Shown here: positions 1 to 13,087 of the stretch, piece after piece | How the letters are laid out: each line of letters opens with the position of its first letter | Position numbering within the stretch: the stretch's first letter is position 1 | Source: Promethearchaeota archaeon | Lineage (GTDB): Archaea > Asgardarchaeota > Lokiarchaeia > Sigynarchaeales > SOKP01 | Direction of reading: 5' to 3' | DNA length: 14,284 nucleotides | Assembly (NCBI GenBank): GCA_014729315.1 | Contig: WJKD01000200.1 | Span: 1-14,284, forward strand | Notes under the pieces: generated by a model | Seen by the model: only the letters and a program-made list of their open reading frames with translations | Database searches by the model: none | Told to the model about the DNA's origin: nothing | Position numbers and translations under genes: made by a program

Positions 1-2996
1 AGATTATATAGCATGAAAAGTCTTTTTGTTTCGATCTCTCCTCGACTGATGTATTGAATTAAGAAATCCCCTATATCATCAGTACTTATGTTTGTTTTTA
101 CCCCAATCAATTTAAAAAAGTTAAGACTGTTAGGGTATGACGAATGTTTAATACTTCTAATATTATCCCCGAAGATCATCTCAGCATCCCTCGAATACAT
201 AATAAGTCGAGAACCCACTTCAAAACAATTATGTTCGAGAAGATAAACCACCTTATCTTTTAATAGTCTTTTTTTAGTCTTGTGAGAAAGTTTTTCGAAA
301 TTTTCAGTTCGTCCTAAATATGAGTAAATTTTATCAAATCTCCTTGTAATCTCCTTTTTATTTTTTAGCTCTTCTTTAGGTATCTTTTTCTTAGAGACAA
401 GAAAGTCTAAGAGATGACTCGCAACATCTTCAGGATTTGGTTTTTTTCTTATTTTAAAAGCCTTAATAAATTTATCGGGCACATTGATTAATGTATAAGG
501 CACAGAATGTCCAAGTAAATCGATTAATTTTTTTTCCATTAAATAAGACTCTTTCGGTTTAAACAGTCCTTTTGTAGTAATCATCCAAGGCTCTTCCTTA
601 AGTTCATTTATGAATATTTCCTTTTCGTCCTTTTCTTTATTTTTGAAAACTGAGTCTAATATTAACTCAACCCTTTTGACGAGCGAACTTATTTTTTTTT
701 TACTTGTTTTATCTAGATCCTCATATTCGGAAATAGTCTGATTTAAGGCTAATCTTAAATGCCTAATTTTTGGATACTTTGAAATACCTATTTTTTTAAA
801 AAATTTTATAAAATCTTTGTTCTGCTCGTCCTCTAAGTTGAAATAATGGACTAAATCGCCAAATATCTTTTGATTCTTTTTAGTGTTGAAATAGCACTCC
901 GAAGGTCTCAAAAACTCATTAGTCGTAGTTGGAATAATTTCTAAATCTTTCAATGTATCCAAATCATGATCCGTAAGGTTTTTTACATTATCCGATAGAT
1001 ATGTAAGTAGTTTAATTGATACTATTGAAGAACCATATCTTCTTAGATGTTTCACGACAAAAGAAGGATTCAATTCGCTTGATACTCCTAAAGATTTTAA
1101 ATAGACTTTGCAAATCTTTTCCTTTTCTAACTCAGGAGGGACTAAGGGGATATTCGTTTTTAATATACTAACGATGTCCTCGCTGTTAAAGAAGGCTTCT
1201 TTAGAATTTCTAAATCCCATATTTGTGAGGACAATTTTTTGTTTCTTTTCGTAGATTCCATTTTTATAAAAATAATTATAATATTTCTTGAGTAAGTCCA
1301 AATTTTTAACCGAAAGACGGGATTTAATTGAAATGAAGTACAAAAGAACGTCAGTTTTTTTCATATTCCGCGCTCCAAATTTACGAACAAAACTGGTTAA
1401 TACTTCGTTTGTTGCGAATTTGCTACTTAATTCTTTAGTTGGATCGTAGAGACCTATAGCATCCTCGTTTGGAATAATAATTTTTACTGGTGATGATAAT
1501 CTATTTAATCTGTTAGGGACAGTCTCGCTTTGGGTTAATTTACACCTCAATTCCTTATCTAAACTATCTCGATGTATAGAAAGATATTCCCAAGCTTTAT
1601 AGAGCGTTTCTATGTTCCTAATCTCTTTATTTGCAAATTTATCTACTAAATCTTCAATACTTAACTCTTTTATTCCCAGTGATTTTAAGAAATCGATGAG
1701 TTTTTCCGAAGATGGAGGTTCAATGAAATTGTAATGATAATTGAAGAAAGGCCATAAACCCTTTTCAGCAATTACTATTTTCTTTGCCTTGTTCCAGTTG
1801 CCTTTATAATCCAATATATTCTTACTAAGAAAACTCTTAATGTTGTCTAGGATGTACTGTTCGATGTAAGGTTCTAAAGATGTATGGGTTTTTCGGTAAG
1901 ATAAAACATTTAGTAGAGAATTGAAATATTTGATTCGCTTCTTTAATGGCAAATCAGAAATTTTTTCTTTCAAATAATCAAGGACTAATTTAATTAAATT
2001 TCCTGCTTCTTCGAGAAGAAAATTGTTTAACTCGCCATCTAATCCCTCTGTTGAAAACCCTTTTCTTGAAGTCTCAGGTCTAAAATTGCTCGATAATACG
2101 AAACCGAATCCAAATTGAGTATCGGAGGGAAATATTATGTATATTGGATAGTTAACTCTTACCGGAATATCACCGCTTATTTTTTTAAACGCAATGTAAA
2201 TAGGAAAGACCACATCTCCTTCGTAGGATTCAAATTCTTTCTGACTGAAATATTTCTTCGGAATGTCAATTTTTTGCTCAACAATAAGCCACTTATTTGT
2301 ATTAATCTTATTCCTTTTTCCATCGTTCCTTTTCTCGGTTATAAGTATCTCAGAAATTAGAGCTTTATTCCTTTTATGTTTATGAGTTTTCTGTTGATTA
2401 ATCTTTTTCGTTAAAATTAAAGATTTAGTAGGATAATTAACTTCAATCTTTTCTAATTGGATGGTAAAAAGAAGATGCGAATAGTGTAGTAAATATTCGT
2501 CAATTTTTCCTAATTTTTTTATATCCTCTTTTGAAAGACGCTTATGGAGCGGCAGATGAATCTTTGTGCCCTTAAAATACATTTCGTTATTTTCGTCTAT
2601 ATAAGGAACGAAATCCTCTTTTTCATGGTCCATTACAAATTTTAATACCTTTTTCCCAGAATGGTATAAAGGCTGGTCAGAAATAGATAGCACGGACAAT
2701 GCACCCAAATTCATGGCACCTGTTTTTTCAAGTTCCTTTCCACCAAGACAAGGAGTCAACAAGCGCTCTATGTCTCTTGAATCGAATACTCTACCATCAT
2801 TAGTTACGGTGATCTCGTCGGACAAATTGATATTGAGAACAATAGACTTTGCTTCGGCGTCGTCGGCGTTTTGAATCAATTCTCGAACGAAAGTACGGAC
2901 ATCTGTGTAGAGATTGTGAAATCTTTTCGTTGTTTGATAAGCAGGATAAACGATTTGCTTTCTAATTAGTTTTGATTCGTCAAATTCTTTTTCCAT
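1..2996 (-). CDS. Sacsin/HSP90-type ATPase, large, C-terminus beyond the window
   Basis: An uninterrupted frame runs from the ATG at 2996 to the window edge, about 998 codons without a stop, so the C-terminus is missing. The N-terminus carries a Bergerat (GHKL) ATP-binding fold of the sacsin kind. The N-box is ELIQNADDA at residues 39-47, followed by TNDGRVFD at 65-72 (the ND..F form of the ATP-lid motif seen in sacsin) and TGAMNLGALSVLSISDQP at 92-109, equivalent to the G2 box. The rest is a long, mostly helical Lys/Glu/Leu-rich body without a motif I recognise. The family binds ATP and is thought to act as a chaperone or remodelling ATPase. Bacterial and archaeal members often sit in accessory or defence-like loci, but I see no partner nuclease or helicase here. 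AGGGGT lies 12 nt before the start and may be a weak ribosome site. The ATPase domain assignment is firm; the cellular role is unknown. Confidence 0.85.
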   Translation of the reverse strand, partial: MEKEFDESKLIRKQIVYPAYQTTKRFHNLYTDVRTFVRELIQNADDAEAKSIVLNINLSDEITVTNDGRVFDSRDIERLLTPCLGGKELEKTGAMNLGALSVLSISDQPLYHSGKKVLKFVMDHEKEDFVPYIDENNEMYFKGTKIHLPLHKRLSKEDIKKLGKIDEYLLHYSHLLFTIQLEKIEVNYPTKSLILTKKINQQKTHKHKRNKALISEILITEKRNDGKRNKINTNKWLIVEQKIDIPKKYFSQKEFESYEGDVVFPIYIAFKKISGDIPVRVNYPIYIIFPSDTQFGFGFVLSSNFRPETSRKGFSTEGLDGELNNFLLEEAGNLIKLVLDYLKEKISDLPLKKRIKYFNSLLNVLSYRKTHTSLEPYIEQYILDNIKSFLSKNILDYKGNWNKAKKIVIAEKGLWPFFNYHYNFIEPPSSEKLIDFLKSLGIKELSIEDLVDKFANKEIRNIETLYKAWEYLSIHRDSLDKELRCKLTQSETVPNRLNRLSSPVKIIIPNEDAIGLYDPTKELSSKFATNEVLTSFVRKFGARNMKKTDVLLYFISIKSRLSVKNLDLLKKYYNYFYKNGIYEKKQKIVLTNMGFRNSKEAFFNSEDIVSILKTNIPLVPPELEKEKICKVYLKSLGVSSELNPSFVVKHLRRYGSSIVSIKLLTYLSDNVKNLTDHDLDTLKDLEIIPTTTNEFLRPSECYFNTKKNQKIFGDLVHYFNLEDEQNKDFIKFFKKIGISKYPKIRHLRLALNQTISEYEDLDKTSKKKISSLVKRVELILDSVFKNKEKDEKEIFINELKEEPWMITTKGLFKPKESYLMEKKLIDLLGHSVPYTLINVPDKFIKAFKIRKKPNPEDVASHLLDFLVSKKKIPKEELKNKKEITRRFDKIYSYLGRTENFEKLSHKTKKRLLKDKVVYLLEHNCFEVGSRLIMYSRDAEMIFGDNIRSIKHSSYPNSLNFFKLIGVKTNISTDDIGDFLIQYISRGEIETKRLFMLYN

Positions 2997-3194: not shown

Positions 3195-3513
3195 TTAATA
3201 TTTCTCTTTACTTAATATCTCGTCCAAGTTGATATTAGAAAGATTTTTTACTGCTTCGCTCCCCAGTTCTATTACCTTTAAAATGATATTAGGATCAAGA
3301 TGAGAATATTCTTCTTGACTGTCGGAAATACTATAATTTAATCCAATTAATTCGTATATTAAAGTTACTGGAGTCCTTGTACCCTTTATATAGGTTTTCC
3401 AAGAAAAATATTTCGTTCTGATTTGATTAAAATAGGCAGTTTCGATTATATTGCGTATTAAATACTTAAATGTGTTTGTCAGTTTTTTATTCGATGAGTA
3501 GAAATTGATTCAT
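3195..3513 (-). pseudogene. DUF433-like (antitoxin-type) gene, frame broken near the start
   Basis: In the frame of the preceding HTH-CBS gene, directly after its TGA (3510-3512), a stop-free stretch of 104 codons runs to TAA at 3195. It contains KGTRTPVTLIYELIGLNYS, then EEYSHLDPNII. This is the DUF433 signature (GTRipV..ileL...G.s.eei...yp.L....i). DUF433 proteins are small DNA-binding proteins, usually antitoxins. No ATG, GTG or TTG opens this frame. However, an ATG at 3513 overlaps the upstream stop as ATGA, the usual coupled start, and encodes MNQFLLIE before a TAA. Removing one T from the TTT run at codon 4 would join that start to the DUF433 frame. It is therefore a single-base frameshift, a +1 recoding site, or an assembly error. 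No DUF5615/PIN-like toxin is found downstream. The family match rests on one motif. Confidence 0.55.
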
Positions 3514-4070
3514 ACCGTCTTAAGAAAGTCGGCGTCTGTAATTATGCCGATGTAAGCGTTTTTATCGGCCACCAAAACAGCAGAATATCTAACCAGCAAA
3601 TCCGACACATCCTTTAAGGACCATGATTGCTCGATTTCAGGAAATGCTAGCTCTTTAATATGAAAAACTTCAATATCCATAAGATCTGAATTATGAATGA
3701 TTAAATTTTGGATTTTTTTCGAAGTAATACTTCCCAAATTCGTACCATTATCGATTATCGGAAGTTGAGAGATATTATGTTCGCTCATTAAGTCAACTGC
3801 TTCTTTGACTTTTGTATCTGAGGAAATTGAAATGATATTTTTTGTCATAATGTTGAGGGCTATCAACTTTGATTCTTTTCTTTTCATTCGTTCTTTTTCT
3901 AAAAACTCGAAAATTGCTTTCGCTTTAGAATAAGGAGGATCAAGAGACCCATTCTCAATTCGCGAAATCGTTGATTGCGTTAATCCTAATTCTTTACCTA
4001 GATTCTCCTGGCTTAAGTTTAACTTTTTCCGCAGATATTTAATTTCTTCTAAATCGGGCAAATTTTTCAT
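3510..4070 (-). CDS. XRE-type HTH regulator with C-terminal CBS pair
   Basis: The 186-residue protein has a Cro/C1-type helix-turn-helix at about residues 7-60 (LSQENLGKELGLTQSTISRIENG is the core). Two CBS motifs follow at about 70-125 (MSEHNISQLPIIDNG..LGSI) and 130-186 (ending GIITDADFL). This is the archaeal HTH-CBS family (COG3620-like), in which the CBS pair probably senses an adenosyl or nucleotide ligand. The gene is divergent from the DUF39/ferredoxin pair, with 154 bp between the starts. DUF39 itself also has a CBS pair, so control of homocysteine synthesis by S-adenosylmethionine or a related compound is a reasonable inference. A perfect 15-bp palindrome lies 30-44 bp before the ATG, over the likely promoter, and suggests autoregulation. 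The stop overlaps a downstream ATG (ATGA) that belongs to the damaged DUF433 gene. Confidence 0.85.
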   Translation of the reverse strand: MKNLPDLEEIKYLRKKLNLSQENLGKELGLTQSTISRIENGSLDPPYSKAKAIFEFLEKERMKRKESKLIALNIMTKNIISISSDTKVKEAVDLMSEHNISQLPIIDNGTNLGSITSKKIQNLIIHNSDLMDIEVFHIKELAFPEIEQSWSLKDVSDLLVRYSAVLVADKNAYIGIITDADFLKTV

Positions 4071-4099
4071 TGTGTTTTTCCAAAATTTAATAATTGTGT

Positions 4100-4114
4100 C
4101 GCATAATTTATGCG
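4100..4114. promoter_or_regulatory. 15-bp perfect palindrome, candidate operator
   Basis: CGCATAA-T-TTATGCG has seven matched bases on each side of one central base. It sits in the 154-bp divergent promoter, about 37 bp before the HTH-CBS ATG, where its AT core could overlap that gene's TATA element. It is the most GC-marked symmetrical site in this spacer, as expected for an HTH dimer. That the neighbouring HTH-CBS protein binds it is inferred from position. Confidence 0.55.
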
Positions 4115-4137
4115 TCTAAGGAATATTTCGAACCTAA

Positions 4138-4151
4138 AATATTTAAATATT
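4138..4151 (+). promoter_or_regulatory. AT palindrome, possible TATA box of the DUF39 operon
   Basis: AATATTTAAATATT is a perfect 14-bp palindrome 74-87 bp before the GTG at 4225. TTTAAATA fits an archaeal TATA element and would give a leader of roughly 50 nt. In DNA this AT-rich, such symmetry can arise by chance. Confidence 0.3.
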
Positions 4152-4224
4152 AACTATATTTTATACTATTATTCTTATTAATATTTTTATAATAATTCTA
4201 ATATTTCAGCAAGTAGGTGATTAA

Positions 4225-5697
4225 GTGACCAAGACTTATGCAGAAATTAACGAGAAAATAAAAAAAGGCGAAGCTGTAGTAGTGACTGCTGAAGAAATGA
4301 TCGATATCGTAGATGAGCAAGGAGTTAGAATAGCTGCAAAGGAAGTGGATGTCGTAACGACGGGCACTTTCGGTCCAATGTGCTCCAGCGGAGCATTTTT
4401 AAATTTCGGACATTCTGATCCTCCTATTAAATTCGAGCATCTCTGGTTAAACGAAGTTCATGCCTATCATGGGAATGCTGCCGTTGACTGTTACATTGGA
4501 GTTACTAGGATGGCCGATAAACGTCCTTTTGAATACGGAGGAGGAAATGTAATAGAAGACTTAGTTTCGGGAAAACCGATACGGCTTAGAGGAATCTCAA
4601 ACACAACAGATTGTTATCCTCTTGGAGAGGTCGACACATTTTTCACATTAGACGATTTGAATCAAGCAATACTATGTAATCCCAGGAATGCCTATCAGAG
4701 ATATGTATGTGCGGTGAATAGCACGGATAAAACACTATATACTTACATGGGAAAGCTTTTGCCGAACTTTGGAAACGCTCACTTTTCGGGATCAGGATGT
4801 TTAAACCCTCTTTGCAACGACCCCGATTACGAAACTATAGGTATAGGTACTAGAATTTTCTTGGGTGGGGGTACGGGATATGTAATCGGTGAGGGAACTC
4901 AGCATAATCCAAATAATAGATTCGGAACCCTTTTTCTCAAAGGAGATTTAAAAAATATGTCCGCAGAATATCTTAGAGGTGTTAATTACGAAAAGTATGG
5001 AACTTCAATGTTCGTAGGAGTGGGTATTCCAATTCCGATTTTAAACGAAGATTTAGCGAAAAAGACTGCTGTGAAAGACGAGGGTATTATCACTGAAATC
5101 GTTGATTACGGAGTTCCACGAAGAGATAGGCCAACTTTAAAGAAAACTAATTATCAGGAATTAAAAAGTGGTAGCATCGAGTTAAATGGAAAAAAAATTA
5201 AATGCTCTTCGTTGTCTTCGTTATATTATTCGCGCAAAATTGCTCGAGAACTCAAAGAATGGATTGAAGACGGTAAATTTTTCTTGAATTCTCCGGCAGA
5301 GAACCTTCCAAAAAATGTAGATTATAAATCCATGAAACAAACTTCAGAATTAAAATTTGTTAAGGATTTGAAAAAAGAAGCAATAATATGCTACGATGAT
5401 TGCGATATTAAAATTGTGGCAGAAAAAATAATAAATAAAAACATGAACCATATTGTTATCACAGATCGAGAACGAAAATTAAAAGGAATAGTTACTAGTT
5501 TTGATATAACTAAAGCTATAGCTAAAAATACTCAGGATTTAAAAGATATTACCACGAAAAAAGTTATTACAACTACGGATAACGAACCCATCGAAATCGC
5601 AGCTCGTAAAATGAAAACAAATCAAATATCTGCTTTGCCGGTAATAGACGATCAAAATACTGTGGTGGGAATTATCACTTCGGAGGAGTTGATGTAG
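4225..5697 (+). CDS. L-aspartate semialdehyde sulfurtransferase (DUF39) with C-terminal CBS pair
   Basis: The 490-residue protein belongs to the DUF39 family (COG1900). Methanosarcina MA1821 of this family, with its ferredoxin partner, makes homocysteine from aspartate semialdehyde and sulfide (EC 2.8.1.16). Residues 1 to about 365 are the DUF39 domain. The conserved cysteines occur at C53 (FGPMCSSGAF) and C130 (NTTDCYPLGE), matching from memory the functional Cys54 and Cys131 of MA1821. Gly-rich segments follow (FLGGGTGYVIGEGTQHNP). Residues 378-490 are two CBS motifs, a common fusion that probably gives allosteric control. The start is GTG at 4225, chosen because AGGTGA lies four bases before it (4215-4220). 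The ferredoxin gene follows after three bases, so the two are co-transcribed. Assignment is strong from family and context. Confidence 0.92.
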   Translation: MTKTYAEINEKIKKGEAVVVTAEEMIDIVDEQGVRIAAKEVDVVTTGTFGPMCSSGAFLNFGHSDPPIKFEHLWLNEVHAYHGNAAVDCYIGVTRMADKRPFEYGGGNVIEDLVSGKPIRLRGISNTTDCYPLGEVDTFFTLDDLNQAILCNPRNAYQRYVCAVNSTDKTLYTYMGKLLPNFGNAHFSGSGCLNPLCNDPDYETIGIGTRIFLGGGTGYVIGEGTQHNPNNRFGTLFLKGDLKNMSAEYLRGVNYEKYGTSMFVGVGIPIPILNEDLAKKTAVKDEGIITEIVDYGVPRRDRPTLKKTNYQELKSGSIELNGKKIKCSSLSSLYYSRKIARELKEWIEDGKFFLNSPAENLPKNVDYKSMKQTSELKFVKDLKKEAIICYDDCDIKIVAEKIINKNMNHIVITDRERKLKGIVTSFDITKAIAKNTQDLKDITTKKVITTTDNEPIEIAARKMKTNQISALPVIDDQNTVVGIITSEELM

Positions 5698-5700
5698 GAG

Positions 5701-6099
5701 ATGACTATTATCAATATTACCTTACCGTTCGGATTAGTAAAAGAGATCGATGATTATTCAACAATCATCAACGAAATTTTAAAACATAAAATTACTCTTA
5801 ATATTCTTAAATTTTCAGTAGGATCGGGGGGAGTGACTTTATTACTGGATATTCCCGAGGATAAAATCAGCACTATTACTGAATCGCTCAAAAAGAACAA
5901 TATTATCGTAAATAAAAAGGGCAGAATTGTTATTGACGAAGAAAAATGTATTGATTGTGGAGCGTGCATCAGTCTCTGTCCCACTGATGCCTTACATTTT
6001 AATAGAGACGATAGACTAGAATTTTTCGATGAAAAATGTATTGGGTGTCTTATCTGCTTGGACAGTTGCCCGCGACACGCTATTGAAGAGAACAAATAA
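5701..6099 (+). CDS. NIL-domain 2x[4Fe-4S] ferredoxin, partner of DUF39 sulfurtransferase
   Basis: The 132-residue protein has an N-terminal NIL (ACT-like) domain at about residues 1-75 with the VGSGGVTLLLDIPED strand region. A double-cluster ferredoxin follows: C83, C86, C89 and C93 (CIDCGACISLCP), then C113, C116, C119 and C123 (CIGCLICLDSCP). This is the architecture of MA1822, which supplies electrons or handles sulfur for the DUF39 enzyme. Its ATG lies three bases after the DUF39 stop, with GGAGGAG at 5682-5688 inside the end of the DUF39 gene. The cytoplasmic sulfur-insertion role is inferred from the pairing, which is conserved in archaea and some anaerobic bacteria. Confidence 0.9.
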   Translation: MTIINITLPFGLVKEIDDYSTIINEILKHKITLNILKFSVGSGGVTLLLDIPEDKISTITESLKKNNIIVNKKGRIVIDEEKCIDCGACISLCPTDALHFNRDDRLEFFDEKCIGCLICLDSCPRHAIEENK

Positions 6100-6208: not shown

Positions 6209-7120
6209 TTAATCTTCATTCAAAGATTCTTTAATATCCTTTAGTTCGCTTTCTGCTTCAGATATAAACGCTTCAATTTGAGATTTTCTGGACTCATAAT
6301 CTTCTTTAGCAATTTTATTATCCAATAATAGATCTTGCTGCGCTGTAATTTTCTCTTTTAATTCGTTAATTCTGTTTTGAACTTCTTTTTGTTGCTTAAG
6401 GAGCCATTCTAAATCCGCTTTATTAGCGTTAGCTATAGAATCAGATAAATGTTTTTCGGAAGCGTACAGTTGTTGGGTACCCTCGGGAGAACTTATTCCT
6501 AAAATATTAAAACTTTCTAAATCTAATCCATATCTAAGAAAATCTTCTGTTATTTTAGTGATTATAAGATTTATTACATGTTCTCTTTCTTCTAAAAGTA
6601 TCCCTTTTGCGTTGTAATTTTTAAAGATATCTCTTAACGACGTATGTAATAGACCGTTAATCCACATTTTTAGGTCGTGAGCTATAAACTCTCGTCTTCC
6701 AGCAGCAACATTAGTTAAAAACGCTTTTACATCATTAATTCTAAGCTTAAGATTCCCGTATAATCCAATAACTATTCCATCTTTAGTTGGTAGACCATGT
6801 GATTGAGGTATTCCCCAAGGAATTTCGAATAAAGAGGTATTAACCCAAATAATTTCCGTACCTTTGATTCTCGCTTTTTTCTCAAGCTCATATATACCAC
6901 CACTCAATACGCCCACAAGTTCTCCTTTATTGTAAAAAAGTGCTTTTTCATAATCCCTAACTGCGAAATATTTTTTTTTTTTAATATTATCTCCTGGTTG
7001 GGGAAAGGTATAGATAACTTGTCTTTCAAGGATTTCTGAATCTATCCTTTCCCAAGATATTACCTTGGGATCATGATCTTTAAATTTTGCATCTTGTATT
7101 TCTTTATACATTTCTTTCAC
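6209..7120 (-). CDS. SPFH (virion-core/YdjI-type) protein with coiled-coil and SHOCT-like tail
   Basis: Residues about 18-215 resemble the cytosolic SPFH/band-7 branch often named virion core protein (YdjI, COG4260). Visible segments are VISWERID.., the KKKYFAVRDYEKALFYNKG region, the IIWVNTSLFEIPWGIP segment, and a strand (GIVIGLYGNLKLRINDVKAF) leading to the SPFH core. There is no transmembrane segment or signal peptide. Residues 235-303 are a charged coiled coil containing LLLDNKIAKEDYESRKSQIE, close to a SHOCT motif (L-x-x-G-I-T-x-E-E-F-x-x-K). SPFH proteins form oligomeric scaffolds, often at membranes. The frame can start at GTG 7120, but ATG at 7111 has GTGAAAG just before it and may be the true start. 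It lies 73 bp after the winged-helix gene and is probably co-transcribed. A link to the ubiquitin-like genes is only positional. Confidence 0.75.
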   Translation of the reverse strand: MKEMYKEIQDAKFKDHDPKVISWERIDSEILERQVIYTFPQPGDNIKKKKYFAVRDYEKALFYNKGELVGVLSGGIYELEKKARIKGTEIIWVNTSLFEIPWGIPQSHGLPTKDGIVIGLYGNLKLRINDVKAFLTNVAAGRREFIAHDLKMWINGLLHTSLRDIFKNYNAKGILLEEREHVINLIITKITEDFLRYGLDLESFNILGISSPEGTQQLYASEKHLSDSIANANKADLEWLLKQQKEVQNRINELKEKITAQQDLLLDNKIAKEDYESRKSQIEAFISEAESELKDIKESLNED

Positions 7121-7193
7121 TTTTTTGGTTATGAGTTGTTAATTGTTATTTTTGTATGATTATTTAAATTTTAACTATGATTTAATTTGAGAG

Positions 7194-8588
7194 TCATTCA
7201 TCTTGTCTTGAAACAAGATACCAATATTCACCATGTAAAAACGATTTTGAATATTTTAAAATTCCTACTTCTGTCAAATCAATTAATAATTTCATGCACT
7301 TCGACTTCTTCCATTTAGTTTCTTCCATTATATCTGCCAAAGAAAGTTTTTGTTTCTGATTTGCCAATGATATTAATTTGACCTCATCTTGGGAAATGTC
7401 GCGGGCAATTAGTTGGACTACCTTAAGATAATGATTTTCGTCCTCTTGAATGGTCTTAATACCTGGAATATAGCCTTGGTCAGCAAGCGAGTTTATAACT
7501 CGTTCCAAATCCTCAATTGTGATACTTAAGGATGGTTTTTCGTCTAAAATAAGCTGATATAAAGCGAATAATGGAATATTTTCTTTAATTTCGATATAAT
7601 GATCGTTAAAATGAATTTGTCCTTTTTTTAGCATTGCTAACAGCTGCAAAACTATAGATTCAACCCCTTTATTTTTTTCTTCCGTGCTCATAGGGACCTC
7701 GATCAATTCACTTAACATTTCGGAAGTAATGCTATTTTTAGACAAATTCTTTAACATTTCCGAAGTTAGGTGATGAAAATCAACATCAATATCTTCTCGC
7801 TTATAAACCAAACTCGAGAGTATTCTAACTTCTTCCCTAAGATCGTTCGCGAGCGAAAAAGCATTAGAGATTGAATTATTTTCAAGCAAATTCGATAATT
7901 TATCATTAAATTCAAAAATTCTTTTTATTTCGTTGAGGATTACAGAATTAAAGAAATATGATTCGAGATATAAATCGAAAATATCGTTCTTGGATAATTT
8001 TCTTTGTTTCTCTCCCTTTTTCTTAAGCATTAGGCTTGCAATTGGATCAGCGGGCAGATTATTTACTTTTTGCTTTAAAAATTTTATTCTCTTAATAAGA
8101 AAACTCATAATGTCTTCAAATTGGGGATTATTAAGATCTATAATAAGCCCGAGAAGTTTGCTAAAATCCACTTGTAAATCTTTTAATTTTTTTGTTATTT
8201 TTTGTAATTTAGCTGAGCCTTTAGTTTTTAAATCATCAATTTTTTTCGGTATTTGAATTTTGTAGAGAAGCTCGTCTTCTCTATTAAAAAATTCGATATT
8301 ATTTTCGATACCCTTTGCTTCTTTTAATACCTTTTTCCCAAATTTTGAGATTTTCCATTTTGGAAGGATATTATTTTTCTCAACCACTCTTTCAACTTGG
8401 TTAAATTTTTCTAATTGAAGTAGGACATTCTTCACTACTCTCATCGATAGTCCGGTATTTTCACTAATGTTTCGAATGCTGGAGAGTTCTTTTTTTTTAG
8501 AGTTTAAGTATAGTAATACCGTTTCTATGCCTTGTAAAATGATTGGCAATGAACGAGTAGGATTTTTATTTTTGTTCTGTTTTGACAT
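7194..8588 (-). CDS. Multi-winged-helix coiled-coil protein, function unassigned
   Basis: I do not recognise a named family across the 464 residues. Residues 15-85 form a winged helix (ISENTGLSMRVVKNVLLQLE is the recognition part, followed by a KWKISKFGKKVL wing). Residues 100-300 are long charged helices, probably coiled coil. Residues about 335-395 look like a second winged helix (SITIEDLERVINSLADQGYI). Residues 402-464 form a third (LSLADIMEETKWKKSKCMKL, then GILKYSK..GEYWYLV). It could be a transcription factor, or a scaffold of the kind found in UFL1 and DDRGK1, which are built of repeated winged-helix/PCI-like units. Its place next to UFM1-, UFC1- and UBA5-like genes, and a promoter element shared with them, make the second idea worth testing. 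No sequence signature of UFL1 was recognised. The start is ATG 8588 with a TATA-like element about 50 bp before it. Confidence 0.7.
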   Translation of the reverse strand: MSKQNKNKNPTRSLPIILQGIETVLLYLNSKKKELSSIRNISENTGLSMRVVKNVLLQLEKFNQVERVVEKNNILPKWKISKFGKKVLKEAKGIENNIEFFNREDELLYKIQIPKKIDDLKTKGSAKLQKITKKLKDLQVDFSKLLGLIIDLNNPQFEDIMSFLIKRIKFLKQKVNNLPADPIASLMLKKKGEKQRKLSKNDIFDLYLESYFFNSVILNEIKRIFEFNDKLSNLLENNSISNAFSLANDLREEVRILSSLVYKREDIDVDFHHLTSEMLKNLSKNSITSEMLSELIEVPMSTEEKNKGVESIVLQLLAMLKKGQIHFNDHYIEIKENIPLFALYQLILDEKPSLSITIEDLERVINSLADQGYIPGIKTIQEDENHYLKVVQLIARDISQDEVKLISLANQKQKLSLADIMEETKWKKSKCMKLLIDLTEVGILKYSKSFLHGEYWYLVSRQDE

Positions 8589-8644
8589 AGTTAAAAATTA
8601 ATTTATTCTGAACTATAAAATAAGTAACTTTTGTCTAATATAAA

Positions 8645-8666
8645 TGTTTCCATATGGAACAACTTT
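8645..8666. promoter_or_regulatory. Shared 22-bp element, copy 1, before winged-helix/SPFH genes
   Basis: TGTTTCCATATGGA, two bases (AC), AACTTT. The core TTCCATATGGAA is a perfect 12-bp palindrome. The element lies 57-78 bp before the ATG at 8588. On the minus strand it is followed directly by TTTATATTA (8643-8635), a good archaeal TATA box. It therefore sits where a regulator would touch the BRE/TATA region. A nearly identical copy lies at 13066-13087. Confidence 0.7.
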
Positions 8667-8712
8667 TAAAAATGTGAATGAAAGATAAATAATTATAATA
8701 GAATATTTTTAT

Positions 8713-8737
8713 AATTCCTTTTGAAATGCAAGGAATT
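8713..8737. repeat. Inverted repeat, 8-bp stem with 9-nt loop
   Basis: AATTCCTT (8713-8720) and AAGGAATT (8730-8737) are exact inverted copies separated by TTGAAATGC. The repeat lies in the 257-bp spacer between the UFM1/UFC1 fusion gene and the winged-helix gene. It may be a hairpin in the 3' end of the fusion-gene transcript or a second operator upstream of the winged-helix promoter. Confidence 0.4.
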
Positions 8738-8759
8738 CTCGTAAAATAGAATTAAATTA

Positions 8760-8774
8760 TAGAAAAGAAAAAAC
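8760..8774 (-). terminator. U-tract terminator candidate after the fusion gene
   Basis: Read on the minus strand this is TGTTTTTTCTTTTCT, about 72-86 bp after the stop of the UFM1/UFC1 fusion gene and about 100 bp before the winged-helix promoter. Archaeal RNA polymerase terminates at such T runs. There is no supporting hairpin immediately before it. Confidence 0.35.
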
Positions 8775-8845
8775 ATATGACTACTAATCTACTAATTCTT
8801 TTTCAGATGTATTAATTACTAATTTTAATTAATGTTTTAATTTAA

Positions 8846-9667
8846 TTAGTTTTTCTTGTAAAATTCTTTGATAATTATATTTTGCTGGGCGGCCCACCAA
8901 ACCCACACTTGCCTAATAAAAAAGTGGGCAATGCCCAATTGTTCGTTCCAAGCATGAGTATTTGAAAGATGCTCGTGGCAGATCATTACATACTTTTTAC
9001 TTTTCTGCTCCCAGATATTTTTTAAAAAGATTTTCCCGCAATAATCAATTATTTTCGAATCAGCAAAACATCGCGGGCATACTTTGGGATATTCCGAGGT
9101 GAGAAGAACCACGATATCGAACTTTATTTCAGGATGTTCTGGTACGAGCAGATGGCCATTCCATAGAAGATAGTTATATCTAGGATTTTTTTCAGGATAT
9201 AATCTAAACCAAGGTAAATTTTTTGTGTTTTTTAAAAAATTAATGTACTTCATTACCTTATTAATTTCTAACTTCACTCTATCTTTCCAAGCCGGATGCT
9301 TCGGACCAATGTCTGCCCATTTTTCCGGAAATTCTTGGATCAACTCTTCAATAATTGATCTCTGCCAATTAATCTTGGTTTTGTTAGCGTCTATATCAGC
9401 TCCGACAATTCCTCTGTCGATAATGTCAAACGAATTACCAAATTTTTCTACCAGTTCTTTGATAGGACTAAGCAAATCCGAAGAGGTTAATACTTGACCT
9501 CCCATGTTTGCTATGCAGATATTTTGAGAGGAAATTCCAAATTTTTTAGAAATTTCCGGAATAATATCCATTAGCTTTAAAGTAGGAGATACGGGAAAGG
9601 GGATTTGTCTTTTTTCAGAACCAAATTTATTAACTAGGTAAATAGTATTCAATTCAGGCGATGTCAT
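8846..9667 (-). CDS. UFM1-like domain fused to UFC1-like E2 enzyme
   Basis: The 273-residue protein has two domains. Residues 5-89 are a beta-grasp domain resembling UFM1: a PFPVSPTLKL..I strand-helix start, KKFGIS, a central GGQ turn, and EKFGNSFDIIDRGIVG at the end. That end aligns with the KHGSELRIIPRDRVG end of human UFM1 (from memory). Residues 98-273 resemble UFC1: WKDRVKLEI, PWFRL (152-156), FDI (183-185), SEYPKVCP (191-198), the catalytic segment VMICHEHLSNTHAW with C230, then LGIAHFFIRQVWVWWAAQ. UFC1 has WFRL, FDI, YP..AP, ICLTDHF..LW and FGLAHL....PWLA at the same places. An insertion of about 10 residues precedes the active site. The gene lies 91 bp after the JAMM gene and may also have its own promoter (AT-rich spacer). 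No Shine-Dalgarno is seen. Assignment rests on motif order in both halves. Confidence 0.85.
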   Translation of the reverse strand: MTSPELNTIYLVNKFGSEKRQIPFPVSPTLKLMDIIPEISKKFGISSQNICIANMGGQVLTSSDLLSPIKELVEKFGNSFDIIDRGIVGADIDANKTKINWQRSIIEELIQEFPEKWADIGPKHPAWKDRVKLEINKVMKYINFLKNTKNLPWFRLYPEKNPRYNYLLWNGHLLVPEHPEIKFDIVVLLTSEYPKVCPRCFADSKIIDYCGKIFLKNIWEQKSKKYVMICHEHLSNTHAWNEQLGIAHFFIRQVWVWWAAQQNIIIKEFYKKN

Positions 9668-9758
9668 TTTGTCTTATACTTATGGGTTTTTTTCTATTAA
9701 TCTTAATTAATATTTCTCTTATATTTTTTTTCTATTGGTAATTTTTTTTTCATATATT

Positions 9759-10973
9759 TTAAAATTTCGATTGGTACCGTTTAATTTTGTTTTTAATTCT
9801 TTTATACCAGTCAAACTTTTTTGATAAAGAATCGATTTCCTTCAGAAATTCCCGAATTTGTTTTTTACGGTCAATCGATGGCTTGATTTTATCAAAAATG
9901 TCGAAAAAAGCCATAAATCTGGTGAAAAAACTAAAAATCTTGTCTGAAAGTATTTTTTTATTCATTTTTGGGTCTTCAAAAGATAATAATCTAATATAAA
10001 AACCAAAAAAATTTAGATATAAATCTTGCGGGAGAAAAATCTCTTTGTTTTGAATATTAATAATAGAATTATAAATTCTATGAAGGATATTATTGTTCAT
10101 TAATTCAGTTTTAATCAAATCATCGAGATCATTGAAAGTTTTATTTTCTTCCGATACATAAACGAGAATCTTTGCATCAATATTCAGTGATAATTTTATA
10201 TATTTTATTTTAGATCCTTTCGTATCTAATTGGCTCTCGAATTTATCAATTACAAGACGCGAAGAAAGTTTTGACTTAATTCCGTTAGGAATTTTCATAT
10301 CTAAGGGTTTACTATTGAATCGATTTACTAAATAATTTTTTACGACTTGATCTTTAGATATTTTGGAGTTTTTATACATTATTTCTAAGTGATTCCAAAT
10401 GTTATCAAAGAAGTGATTGACCAAATTCAATATTTTAATTCTTATTTTTTGAATGCTTTCTTTTGATTTATTGGTGCTTTTTGGTATTTTTATCTTCAAT
10501 TTCTCTTGGACAGAAAAAATTAAAAATTGGGGCACCTTAGAATCGGTAAATTTTGGACTAATTTCTATGGTTGAGCTATTTTTTCCCATCTGATAATAAT
10601 TAATCTCTGTTCCATTAGTCACTATAGAAACACATTGAGGAAATTGATTACTTAAACTAACCAAGGTTGCATCATCAGTATGGCTGTGAAAGACTTCCCC
10701 AGACGCAGGATGAGAATGATAAATACCAATAGGGCCTATTCCTTGAGGCATATAAGAAGTCATTTCTTGAAATTCTTGAGTGTGGGGAATGGCACTAATA
10801 AAAGTTTGCTGTTCGAATCTTTTACATTCAATAATCGCTAGCACATGGGAAATACCCATGTTGAGATAGCCTATCAACCAGCCATATACTTCATTTTCAC
10901 TCGATAAAGCTTGGGCCTTAATTAAATTAATAAAATCTTTCGGAATGTGAAATCTACTCGTTTTTTCCACCAC
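9759..10973 (-). CDS. JAMM/MPN metalloprotease, candidate UFM1-like processing or deconjugating enzyme
   Basis: Residues 1-150 form a JAB/MPN domain with a complete JAMM site: E28 (NEVYGWLIG), H86-S-H88-P89, seven residues, S97 and D100 (HSHPASGEVFHSHTD). It should bind zinc and cleave isopeptide or peptide bonds C-terminal to a ubiquitin-like Gly. Residues 150-404 are Lys/Ile-rich, mostly helical and not recognised; they may choose the substrate. The start is GTG at 10973, sharing one base with the TAG of the E1 gene (TAGTG), so translation is coupled. In eukaryotes UFM1 is cut by cysteine proteases (UFSP). A metalloprotease here would be a replacement or an older solution, similar to the JAMM enzymes of prokaryotic E1-E2-JAB operons. 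The catalytic domain is certain and the substrate is inferred. Confidence 0.85.
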   Translation of the reverse strand: MVEKTSRFHIPKDFINLIKAQALSSENEVYGWLIGYLNMGISHVLAIIECKRFEQQTFISAIPHTQEFQEMTSYMPQGIGPIGIYHSHPASGEVFHSHTDDATLVSLSNQFPQCVSIVTNGTEINYYQMGKNSSTIEISPKFTDSKVPQFLIFSVQEKLKIKIPKSTNKSKESIQKIRIKILNLVNHFFDNIWNHLEIMYKNSKISKDQVVKNYLVNRFNSKPLDMKIPNGIKSKLSSRLVIDKFESQLDTKGSKIKYIKLSLNIDAKILVYVSEENKTFNDLDDLIKTELMNNNILHRIYNSIINIQNKEIFLPQDLYLNFFGFYIRLLSFEDPKMNKKILSDKIFSFFTRFMAFFDIFDKIKPSIDRKKQIREFLKEIDSLSKKFDWYKRIKNKIKRYQSKF

Positions 10974-11809
10974 TATTTTTTCATTTCGTCGATTAAATCG
11001 TCTATATCTTTATGCGATACCTTAGGAGTTATCTTTTTTCCATTTTTTCCCTTTTCGCCACAAATCGGGCATTGAGGATCTCGACTGGTATTATATATTG
11101 AAAAATTACCACTTGTCATATTGTACATTAGATAATCTATCAATTTACCAAAATTTAGAAGATACTTTAACATTTCTTGAACTTGAATACTTGCTAACAT
11201 AGCCATCGTAGAGGGCAACGACGCTACACACGGCTCTCCTCTTTCATCAGGAATGTCTATTTGAATACTACTAATGCATTTTGCACACGCGGTTTCATAG
11301 GGAATAATTGGGTGGACATATCCAGAAAGACCGCTCCGAGAAGCACCACAGTCGATATAAGGAACATTTTGCAATATGCATTTAGCATTTAAATATTCGC
11401 GTGCCGGAACATTATCCAATCCGTTTAAAATAATATCCATTTCTTCTATTAATTCTTCAAATTCTACTTCAAAATCAATATCCATTATATCCTTTGCAAA
11501 ACATTGTATTTCCACATCTGGATTAATTTCTTTTAATACCCGCGAAGCAACTTCGACCTTTAATTGTCCAATATCCTGGGTCTTAAACATATGTCTGTTC
11601 AAGTTTACAACTTCAACAGAATCAAAGTCAAACAGACTAACTTTTTTAACTCCGCATCTAGTAACCATTTCTGCGGAGACCGTACCTATCCCTCCTATGC
11701 CAGTTATACCAACATGATGTTTTTGTAAATCCTCCCACTTGATGTCGTATCCAAATTCTTTAATAGCTTTTAATCGAGTATATCTATTATCAAGCATTAT
11801 TAAACACAT
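10973..11809 (-). CDS. UBA5-like E1 activating enzyme
   Basis: The 278-residue ThiF/E1 fold adenylates and thioester-links a ubiquitin-like protein. The nucleotide loop is GITGIGGIG (34-42), then SAEMVTRCG, LFDFDSVEVVNLNR (59-72) and INPDV. UBA5 has TAEMLTRCG, LFDYDKVELANMNR and INPDV. The catalytic segment is RGEPCVASLPSTM with C194, then LKYLLNFG; UBA5 has REGVCAASLPTTM and LKFLLNFG. Zinc ligands are C175/C178 (CAKC) and C247/C250 (CPIC). Length matches the adenylation-only architecture of UBA5, with no FCCH or large Cys domain. The tail KDIDDLIDEMKK (267-278) resembles the UFC1-binding end of UBA5 (SLEDLMAKMKNM, from memory). Three bases separate it from the upstream gene. An alternative start is ATG 11797 (M5). 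UBA5 resemblance is much stronger than to MoeB, ThiF or UBA1. Confidence 0.9.
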   Translation of the reverse strand: MCLIMLDNRYTRLKAIKEFGYDIKWEDLQKHHVGITGIGGIGTVSAEMVTRCGVKKVSLFDFDSVEVVNLNRHMFKTQDIGQLKVEVASRVLKEINPDVEIQCFAKDIMDIDFEVEFEELIEEMDIILNGLDNVPAREYLNAKCILQNVPYIDCGASRSGLSGYVHPIIPYETACAKCISSIQIDIPDERGEPCVASLPSTMAMLASIQVQEMLKYLLNFGKLIDYLMYNMTSGNFSIYNTSRDPQCPICGEKGKNGKKITPKVSHKDIDDLIDEMKK

Positions 11810-11812
11810 TAG

Positions 11813-12895
11813 TTAGTATCTTAAAGCTTTAGGAATCTTAGAAACTCTTCCACAGTGCACACATTTTACTTTTCCTTCAATATCTATTTGTTTAATCGGA
11901 AGGGGCGCCCCACATTCCGGACATTGTATATTGAGTATTTGTACCTTTTTTTCCAATTCCTCTTTTATACTGTTAACTTTAATATCTAAATCCTCTAATG
12001 TTTCTTTTATGATGTCAGAATTTTTACCAGTCACCCAAATCAATAGAGTTCCTGTATAACCAGAGGCCAAGATTTGAATGTCGATTAGCTGGAGAGAATC
12101 TAGCGTTGGATTTTTTAGGAACACAGCTGAAGCTAAATAATCTTGTTCTTCGTCGTCTAAAATCTGTTCTATAGGTGCTTCAATAACCTCAAAACTTTTT
12201 AATAAATCACTAAGCGTTCTAAATAAGACTTTAGGATTAGTCGCCTTGAATTGATATTTTTGCCCTTGATTTGGATAACTTCCCTGTTTGATTTCTTTAA
12301 TTAATTCAATGGTTTTATGCTCTATTTCGTTTTGTAGGATATTAACTCTTAGTTCTTTGCGAATTAAATTTTCTTGCTTAAGTTTTAATAATTCTTGATC
12401 AGAACTCTTTTCAATAAAAATTCTCGTCGAACTACCAACAATTACCGGAGGGTTCGGAAAGGTTTTATTGACGAACCCTGATGCAACGATAGGAGCTCCT
12501 CCTTCCCAAGATATTAGAAAAGATACTTCTTGACCAATGTCAATTAACTTTTCTTTTATGGATGGTCTCACGACTTCGGTCCATTCTCCCCGAGAAATTA
12601 AAGAATAAGAACTAGAAATATCAATATGTATTTCTATAGCTTCAGCGGGATTATATTTCAAGATAAAAACTTCATCGTTTTTACCAAAATTTCCCAAATT
12701 TCGTTCATCTACAAATATTCTTTTTTTCTCATCGTAGTGTATACCGCCTATTTCTGAGATTATTGAGAATTTTTTGAAAGGTTTATTAGCTATAATAAAG
12801 ATTGTATCCCCTTCCTTTATATTAGATAATTCTTCTTTATGTCCTTGAATAATACATTTTTCTCTGAGCTGAGGAACTATTTTATAGGTTATCAT
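11813..12895 (-). CDS. Cdc48-N-like double barrel with coiled coil and C-terminal zinc ribbon
   Basis: I see no named family for the whole 360 residues, but the N-terminus resembles the N domain of Cdc48/VAT and UFD1. Residues 1-90 look like a double-psi beta barrel (IKEGDTIFII, then FSIIS, RIFVDERNL and GKNDEVFILKYNPAEAIEI, parallel to the IKPGD..I/..IRID/..GD.V.V pattern of VAT-N). Residues 95-165 look like the second small barrel, ending NPPVIVGSSTRIFIE. A helix or coiled coil covers 166-203. Residues 204-318 are an unassigned alpha/beta region. A zinc ribbon uses C325, C328, C345 and C348 (CPECGAP and CVHCG). No AAA+ module is present, so it should act as an adaptor rather than a motor. 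It is the first gene of the cluster, three bases before the E1 gene. The zinc ribbon is certain; the Cdc48-N assignment is by pattern only. Confidence 0.7.
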   Translation of the reverse strand: MITYKIVPQLREKCIIQGHKEELSNIKEGDTIFIIANKPFKKFSIISEIGGIHYDEKKRIFVDERNLGNFGKNDEVFILKYNPAEAIEIHIDISSSYSLISRGEWTEVVRPSIKEKLIDIGQEVSFLISWEGGAPIVASGFVNKTFPNPPVIVGSSTRIFIEKSSDQELLKLKQENLIRKELRVNILQNEIEHKTIELIKEIKQGSYPNQGQKYQFKATNPKVLFRTLSDLLKSFEVIEAPIEQILDDEEQDYLASAVFLKNPTLDSLQLIDIQILASGYTGTLLIWVTGKNSDIIKETLEDLDIKVNSIKEELEKKVQILNIQCPECGAPLPIKQIDIEGKVKCVHCGRVSKIPKALRY

Positions 12896-13065: not shown

Positions 13066-13087
13066 TGTTTCCATATGGATAAACTTT
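13066..13087. promoter_or_regulatory. Shared 22-bp element, copy 2, before the UFM1-system genes
   Basis: TGTTTCCATATGGA, two bases (TA), AACTTT: 20 of 22 positions are the same as copy 1 at 8645-8666, with the same orientation relative to the downstream genes. The palindromic core is TCCATATGGA. It lies about 170-190 bp before the Cdc48-N-like start and about 80 bp before the 18-codon leader ORF. AT-rich TATA candidates follow on the minus strand (ATTAAAAAG directly, CTTATAATAA 18 bp further). The 428-bp spacer 12896-13323 shows no RNA gene. Confidence 0.65.

Follow-up and report, generated by a model that had tools for sequence, protein, structure and literature searches.

A probable UFM1-type protein-conjugation operon on a contig of a Lokiarchaeon-like archaeon

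Did the core of UFMylation, i.e. the ubiquitin-like protein (Ubl) UFM1 with its E1, UBA5, and its E2, UFC1, exist as a gene set before eukaryotes? This question is raised by a gene cluster on contig WJKD01000200.1 of a Promethearchaeota archaeon, of which a stretch of 14,284 nucleotides was analysed in full (the window). Its minus strand encodes relatives of all three proteins between positions 6209 and 12895, and sequence comparisons and structural models make it very probable that the cluster is an operon for UFM1-type protein conjugation from a Lokiarchaeon-like archaeon. According to the available portions of earlier papers, Ufm1 is absent from archaea and bacteria (Grau-Bove 2014; PMC4327156), UFM1 and UFC1 are exclusive to eukaryotes within a pathway of mosaic origin, and UBA5-like E1s alone occur in archaea and bacteria (Picchianti 2023; PMC10183829). 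The window contains the following features:

11813..12895, minus strand: 360-aa protein that opens the E1-JAMM-Ubl/E2 unit; C-terminal CxxC...CxxC zinc ribbon (weak Pfam and PDB matches)
10973..11809, minus strand: UBA5-like E1, 278 aa, with the C-terminal helix motif IDDLIDEM (PDB search, tree, tail motif)
9759..10973, minus strand: JAMM metalloprotease, 404 aa (Pfam Prok-JAB, 5.6e-8)
9401..9667, minus strand: UFM1-like ubiquitin-fold domain ending in ...DIIDRGIVG89 (profile comparison, predicted structure)
8846..9376, minus strand: UFC1-like E2 domain, residues 98-273 (predicted catalytic Cys230 in ICHEH)
7194..8588, minus strand: 464-aa winged-helix protein (MarR-like wing at the N-terminus, helical middle part, match of ESCRT-II/Vps22 type)
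6209..7120, minus strand: SPFH/Band-7 protein, 303 aa (Pfam Band_7_1, 2.3e-15)
8645..8658, minus strand: operator/promoter-like palindrome TCCATATGGAAACA ahead of the unit of winged-helix and SPFH genes (exact match)
13066..13079, minus strand: second copy of TCCATATGGAAACA, which precedes the 360-aa/E1/JAMM/Ubl-E2 unit by about 171 bp (exact match)

As described in a first-pass annotation of this DNA, the cluster combines relatives of UFM1, UFC1 and UBA5 with JAMM, winged-helix and SPFH proteins, and all of the open reading frames (ORFs) are present and open. Six of them fill the region (6209-7120, 7194-8588, 8846-9667, 9759-10973, 10973-11809 and 11813-12895) and form two units. In the order of transcription, the 360-aa zinc-ribbon protein is followed by the E1, the JAMM protein and the Ubl-E2 protein; after a gap of 257 bp, which contains no further ORF of at least 60 aa, come the winged-helix and SPFH genes. 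The motifs quoted earlier for the E1 (SAEMVTRCG, LFDFDSVE, PCVASLPSTM and LKYLLNFG) and for the E2 (WFRL, FDI, ICHEH and GIAH) are read in the respective ORFs. UFM1 and UFC1 relatives are both there, but as one 273-aa fusion with the Ubl in residues 1-89 and the E2 in residues ~98-273, which corrects the earlier description. The designation of the 360-aa protein as Cdc48-N-like was abandoned, as Pfam and PDB searches with 15 relatives lent it no support and returned weak matches, mostly to zinc ribbons. The kinship of the cluster is not due to chance, because UBA5 tops the PDB matches of the E1 (4.8e-47), all 38 E2 rows match UFC1, and other Asgard genomes have the gene set too, conservation of gene order in such genomes having been proposed as a check.

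The E1 bears out the earlier claim that the resemblance is specific to the UFM1 branch. Among solved structures, UBA5 chains score highest (163.9 bits) and lead E. coli MoeB (92.9 bits) by 71 bits, while ThiF reaches 76.1 bits. In a tree of 86 E1 rows, the 38 from Asgard archaea group with three of UBA5 (human, Timema and one UBA5-like) in one clade supported at 98/91, apart from MoeB, ThiF and rhodanese-fused/MOCS3-type E1s. The rows were gathered by a search seeded with the Asgard E1 of locus L037, and bacterial E1 diversity is therefore thinly sampled. Within the clade, the three UBA5 rows belong together (100/100), as do 11 Loki rows (100/99), a Sigyn-containing group of 16 rows (99/99) and the Heimdall E1s of L010, L012 and L013 (100/98), with L011 falling apart from the latter. 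The order of these groups is weakly supported, the Asgard E1s standing alone together in the best tree at 70/32. The window E1 shares 73% identity over 252 columns with the E1 of locus L001, from a Lokiarchaeota metagenome-assembled genome.

In the PDB-search alignment, the predicted catalytic Cys194 (codon 11228-11230) is aligned with the human UBA5 cysteine. It lies inside the adenylation domain in a C-x-ASLP-x-T segment that is found in 35 of the 38 Asgard rows (all except L017, P0193 and P0200) and in all three UBA5 rows. The next group outside the clade, the three rows P0205-P0207, has the same motif, which is thus not confined to Asgard archaea and eukaryotes, in agreement with the available part of PMC10183829. 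Moreover, the tail of the window E1 displays, as judged from its sequence, the spacing of the UFC1-binding helix of UBA5, and can be called UBS (UFC1-binding sequence)-like. Residues L394, L397, M398 and M401 of UBA5 are described as contacting UFC1 (PMC8481289, consulted in part) and have the same spacing as the pattern PhixxPhiPhixxPhi. This pattern occurs in the window E1 and in 15 of the 26 Asgard E1s whose tail beyond the last CxxC is 15 aa or longer (26 out of 38; one of them, P0194, is a truncated protein), compared with 1.28 expected by shuffling. Of 45 other E1s, 25 have such a tail stretch, often a different domain, and one has the pattern against 6.9 expected. The pattern was picked after the Asgard and UBA5 tails had been viewed but before the published contact residues were consulted, and the rows are related; the shuffle count is consequently not a probability.

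For the E2, the same specificity is indicated by sequence profiles. Pfam UFC1 is matched by all 38 E2 alignment rows at E<=0.01, and its cut-off is exceeded in 12 of 227 genomes. In a PDB search with the E2 profile, UFC1 is found at 7e-7, and among ubiquitin-type E2s UBE2L3 comes first, at 0.48. Compared directly with human UFC1, a 46-row E2 profile aligns over 148 columns (P 1.3e-8), better than with the controls UBE2D2 (5.6e-4, 72 columns) and UBC9 (2.5e-4, 86 columns). The predicted catalytic Cys230 (codon 8978-8980) aligns with C116 of UFC1, and the nearly invariant K212 with the lysine of the UFC1 TAK motif, of which T and A are not kept. The model of the Ubl-E2 protein has a predicted local distance difference test (pLDDT) score of 94, and UFC1 ranks above every other E2 among the matches listed. 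Ordinary UQ_con/ubiquitin-type E2s were also found in all 18 genomes searched, out of the 20 with a UFC1-like E2, and the UFC1-like system is thus an additional one.

The Ubl domain gives P 2.5e-5 with UFM1 in profile comparison, versus 7e-3 or worse with six other Ubls, and UFM1 is the top-ranked Ubl by predicted structure among the matches listed. Structure prediction, which had been suggested as a check, thus places both halves of the protein with the UFM1 and UFC1 folds at the level of models. The outcomes that had been named as refuting the interpretation, profile searches grouping the E1 with MoeB/ThiF and the E2 with other families or models lacking these folds, were not obtained. The predicted mature C-terminus is Gly89 (codon 9401-9403). 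Besides the window, 18 loci are readable across the Ubl/E2 junction; this count omits L018 (no Ubl seen before the E2), L032 (degenerate Ubl after the E2), the fragments L015, L019 and L020 and repeats of the same contigs. In 12 of these 18 loci (L004-L010, L012-L014, L016 and L017) the Ubl is an ORF of its own, and in six (L001-L003, L011, L037 and L043) it is fused to the E2. Nine of the 12 separate ORFs stop exactly at Val-Gly, like mature UFM1, and the other three (L010, L014 and L016) run 1-3 residues past it. Among the fused proteins, Gly89 is kept in 21/21 and Val88 in 20/21 while the following residue is variable, which makes the junction look like a cleavage site. In several loci, the E2 reading frame continues past the stop codon of the Ubl, which resembles the arrangement of a coupled pair.

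The Pfam match of the JAMM protein covers residues 18-106, followed by an uncharacterised C-terminal part, and its residues E28, H86, H88, S97 and D100 are invariant in 17/17 rows. Its best PDB relative is Caldiarchaeum Rpn11 (CsRpn11; 5.9e-7), which according to the part available of PMC6043591 cuts the archaeal ubiquitin precursor after Gly-Gly. Since this closest solved relative processes a ubiquitin precursor, processing and removal of the modifier are likely tasks of the JAMM protein, which by analogy probably stands in for UFSP. A UFSP-type C78 protease was found in 0/227 genomes, but the control genomes were silent as well.

A pattern-based scan of genome contigs yielded 20 loci with the E2, the lineages named being Loki-, Heimdall- and Sigynarchaeota. 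E1, JAMM and Ubl genes were each counted in 16 of them, relatives of the 360-aa protein in 15, of the SPFH protein in 12 and of the winged-helix protein in nine, one of these weak (L003, 30 bits). E1, JAMM, Ubl and E2 share one locus in 15/20 cases (L001-L013, L016 and L017), and in addition in L037; other ORFs lie between them in L004, and L016 and L017 have their E1 and JAMM genes on the opposite strand. Of the loci without the full set, L014 is a short contig, L015 and L020 are fragments, L018 is a contig end and L019 is a decayed copy. In the latter, an E2 remnant (10001-10186, the same as L038) sits beside an intact winged-helix gene, with no E1 or JAMM gene in the 20 kb covered. The E2 fragments L015 and L020 are Loki-like, come from a bin with the label Patescibacteria (AMOR_Bin_1762) and are probably mis-binned. 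Some genomes have several E2 copies, i.e. two in G140 and three in G161. Among the relatives, P0038 is named from Lokiarchaeum ossiferum.

Homology, predicted fold, conserved catalytic residues and linkage would fit the following scheme of cleavage, activation, transfer and regulation. The JAMM protease would cut the Ubl-E2 fusion after Val88-Gly89, releasing a free UFM1-like modifier and a UFC1-like E2; in relatives with separate ORFs, the Ubl would usually be encoded already mature. The UBA5-like E1 would adenylate Gly89 and take the modifier on Cys194, and its C-terminal amphipathic helix would dock on the E2, allowing the modifier to pass to Cys230 and on to target lysines. The JAMM protein would probably also remove the modifier, in place of the eukaryotic UFSP. 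The winged-helix protein would probably regulate both transcription units, and the SPFH protein may supply a membrane platform.

Regulation by the winged-helix protein is suggested by its fold and by the palindrome. Its model (pLDDT 82.7) resembles ESCRT-II Vps22 in a Foldseek search and MarR-type regulators over residues 9-97. The window has two exact copies of TCCATATGGAAACA, one ahead of the winged-helix gene and one ahead of the 360-aa gene. Allowing up to two mismatches gives four matches on both strands, corresponding to these two sites, versus 0.12 expected. Nine other loci have the winged-helix gene, and in six of them CCATATGG is located upstream of the unit containing it: directly before the gene in L002, L005, L006, L007 and L019, and in L001 ahead of a pair of small ORFs that come before the gene. 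CCATATGG is followed by an A/T-rich stretch that looks TATA-like. A degenerate version is visible by eye in L008, and the site is absent from L003 and L009; the 8-mer occurs once elsewhere in L001, L002, L012, L016, L018 and L019. Because the palindrome precedes both units, we read the winged-helix protein as the probable regulator that joins them; a different regulator may act at the candidate site. A sigma-70 promoter scan, whose model is unsuited to archaea, gave 37 matches versus 35.4 expected, i.e. no excess.

Several findings weigh against the interpretation as a UFM1-type operon. At the sequence level, the Ubl resembles UFM1 only marginally: just 2/17 Ubl rows match Pfam Ufm1 at E<=1, the best at 0.037 and thus far from significant, and a PDB sequence search with the Ubl profile gave no UFM1. 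The UFC1 match of the window protein itself (22.3 bits) remains below the curated cut-off of 25. The tail motif is absent or incomplete in 11 of the 26 Asgard tails, and the 28 residues after the last CxxC of the window E1 seem, by length, too few for both the UFM1-interacting sequence (UIS) of UBA5 (residues 334-346) and its linker. Further, the cluster contains no recognisable UFL1, and in L018 and L032 the E2 lacks an E1 within the DNA covered. Finally, the distribution is patchy, with an E2 match in 20/227 genomes of the phylum to which the genome of L001 belongs. Two of these 20 are weak or very short and one is the decayed copy; the weak matches L039 (G158) and L040 (G081) were left unused.

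Each of the competing explanations accounts for part of these data. A generic prokaryotic E1-E2-JAB-Ubl system, related to archaeal ubiquitin, Bil or type II CBASS, could resemble UFM1 merely through the shared ancestry of all such systems, and PADLOC E1-E2 models do match the E1 (best 2.7e-18), its JAB model the JAMM protein (1.2e-3), which moreover has Caldiarchaeum Rpn11 as closest solved relative. PADLOC has no match to the Ubl-E2 protein, however, and the 71-bit lead of UBA5 over MoeB, the UBA5 clade in the tree, the ranking of UFC1 and UFM1 above the other E2s and Ubls listed by fold and above the controls by profile, and the coexistence with ordinary UQ_con-type E2s together render this explanation very unlikely indeed. 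Horizontal transfer of the trio from eukaryotes to Asgard archaea would fit the patchy occurrence and an E1 tree that, with three UBA5 rows sampled, gives little support (70/32) to a clade of Asgard E1s without UBA5. Yet the Asgard rows are diverse and fall into the supported Loki, Heimdall and Sigyn-containing groups, while the UBA5 rows form one clade. To our knowledge, neither the operon form nor the JAMM protease is a feature of eukaryotic UFMylation, which we count against transfer as well, and we regard this origin as improbable. Equally improbable is that the Ubl is not conjugated but serves as a fixed regulatory domain of the E2. Such a role would suit the fusions in the window and in six other loci, but not the 12 loci with a separate Ubl ORF, nine of which stop exactly at Val-Gly, nor the junction glycine kept in 21/21 fusions, nor the locus shared with a UBA5-like E1 and a JAMM gene in 15/20 cases.

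More weight, though still rather little, can be given to the idea that the winged-helix protein is an E3 equivalent to UFL1/DDRGK1 and not a regulator. UFL1-UFBP1 is described as winged-helix in the available part of PMC12985071, and the gene is linked to the system in 9/20 loci, one weakly. On the other hand, no protein of the window has a Pfam UFL1 or DDRGK match, neither protein is among the fold matches listed for the model (such lists do not exclude UFL1), a single-sequence search found no relative of the gene near the Heimdall and Sigyn operons, and the shared palindrome precedes its unit. UFL1 was thus set aside as the identity of this protein, which the reading as a regulator fits better.

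Matches to UFL1 and DDRGK do occur elsewhere in these genomes, namely to PF09743 (UFL1) in 95/227 and to PF09756 (DDRGK) in 96/227 genomes, outside the operon where checked, compared with the UFC1-like E2 in 20/227. The DDRGK model also matches in Methanosarcina. In Loki-type genomes, the UFL1 matches are separate proteins of ~800 aa; in G001, for instance, the match is on contig C9 and the operon on C6, whereas in G096 (C36) and G140 (C77) a UFL1-model match shares the contig of the E2 at a distance of 40-46 kb. In many of these genomes, both models match the same ~800-aa protein (G001:C9, G138:C2, G144:C177, G149:C509, G152:C186 and others, some of them under the handles L054-L065 and L068-L071), and other DDRGK matches are small proteins. 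The published Asgard UFL1 and DDRGK1 may partly be one winged-helix repeat family.

A few relatives of the system are tied to NADase-type domains (TIR and SIR2), a hint of a role in defence. P0059 (285 aa) combines TIR with a C-terminal UFM1-like Ubl, TIR is fused to the 360-aa partner in L017 (6014-7687), and a TIR gene overlaps the Ubl-E2 gene in L043 (503-1342 and 1324-2343). L032 (1195-3546) encodes a SIR2-TPR-E2 protein with the E2 cysteine changed to serine and a degenerate Ubl at its end. These three TIR links and one SIR2 link are few and partly on short contigs, and the Loki neighbourhoods of L001, L003 and L009, viewed by eye, include no obvious defence island. Within the window, a Sacsin-like HATPase (3-2996, minus strand) matches Pfam SACS at 9.4e-8, just under the cut-off, and PADLOC TmtA models with up to 116 bits. 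One could speculate that a conjugation operon of immune or stress type in archaea was the origin of the UFM1 system, and that an ancestor of eukaryotes inherited the trio and redirected it to ribosome and endoplasmic reticulum (ER) quality control. The TIR/SIR2 ties and the TmtA match motivate this doubtful scenario without demonstrating it. Positions 3510-6099 carry a helix-turn-helix-CBS protein (minus strand) beside an HcyBio-CBS enzyme and a two-cluster ferredoxin protein (plus strand); the latter two genes are likely a sulfur-incorporation pair separate from the operon.

Concerning the novelty of the trio, no report of archaeal UFM1 or UFC1 was among the literature matches listed, with preprints and most subscription journals outside the coverage. 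Term counts in the available portions of two recent Asgard papers (PMC12993045 and PMC12872458) gave no mention of UFM1. In the part available of Hatano 2022 (PMC9192718), "Asgard archaeal UFM1" is named once, as an outgroup of Vps22/36, which we take to mean winged-helix, UFL1-like proteins. Our analysis suggests that the archaea closest to eukaryotes already possessed the UFMylation core in the form of a ready-assembled gene cluster. If true, the linked UBA5-UFM1-UFC1 operon in several Asgard lineages would put the whole core before eukaryotes. The three- or four-protein system could be rebuilt in a test tube, so that the origin of UFMylation, and its role before the ER existed, would become directly testable.

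Compared with known systems, the cluster shares with the bacterial E1-E2-JAB defence systems (type II CBASS Cap2/Cap3 and Bil) the E1/E2/JAB set and, in a few relatives, TIR or SIR2. Unlike in those systems, E1 and E2 are separate UBA5- and UFC1-like proteins, and Cap2 is a distant E1 match (2.5e-5 versus 4.8e-47 for UBA5). With the Caldiarchaeum-type ubiquitin operon (ubiquitin, E1, E2, RING and Rpn11), it has in common the compact archaeal Ubl/E1/E2/JAMM set and a JAMM protein related to CsRpn11, but its E1, E2 and Ubl are of the UFM1 branch, its six genes have no RING match, and its modifier ends in Val-Gly instead of Gly-Gly. The Asgard UFL1/DDRGK1 of Picchianti 2023, as far as described in the available part, are likewise Asgard winged-helix proteins tied to UFMylation, whereas the Pfam UFL1 matches are separate ~800-aa proteins outside the operon. 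From eukaryotic UFMylation, the system differs in its archaeal operon, its Ubl-E2 fusion in some lineages, the JAMM protease that probably replaces UFSP, the short E1 without an evident UIS, and a cluster without recognisable UFL1. It shares with the eukaryotic core the kinship of UFM1, UBA5 and UFC1 in fold and sequence, the E1 cysteine in the adenylation domain, the single Val-Gly end, the UBS-like E1 tail, and the UFC1-type IC..H and GxAH segments.

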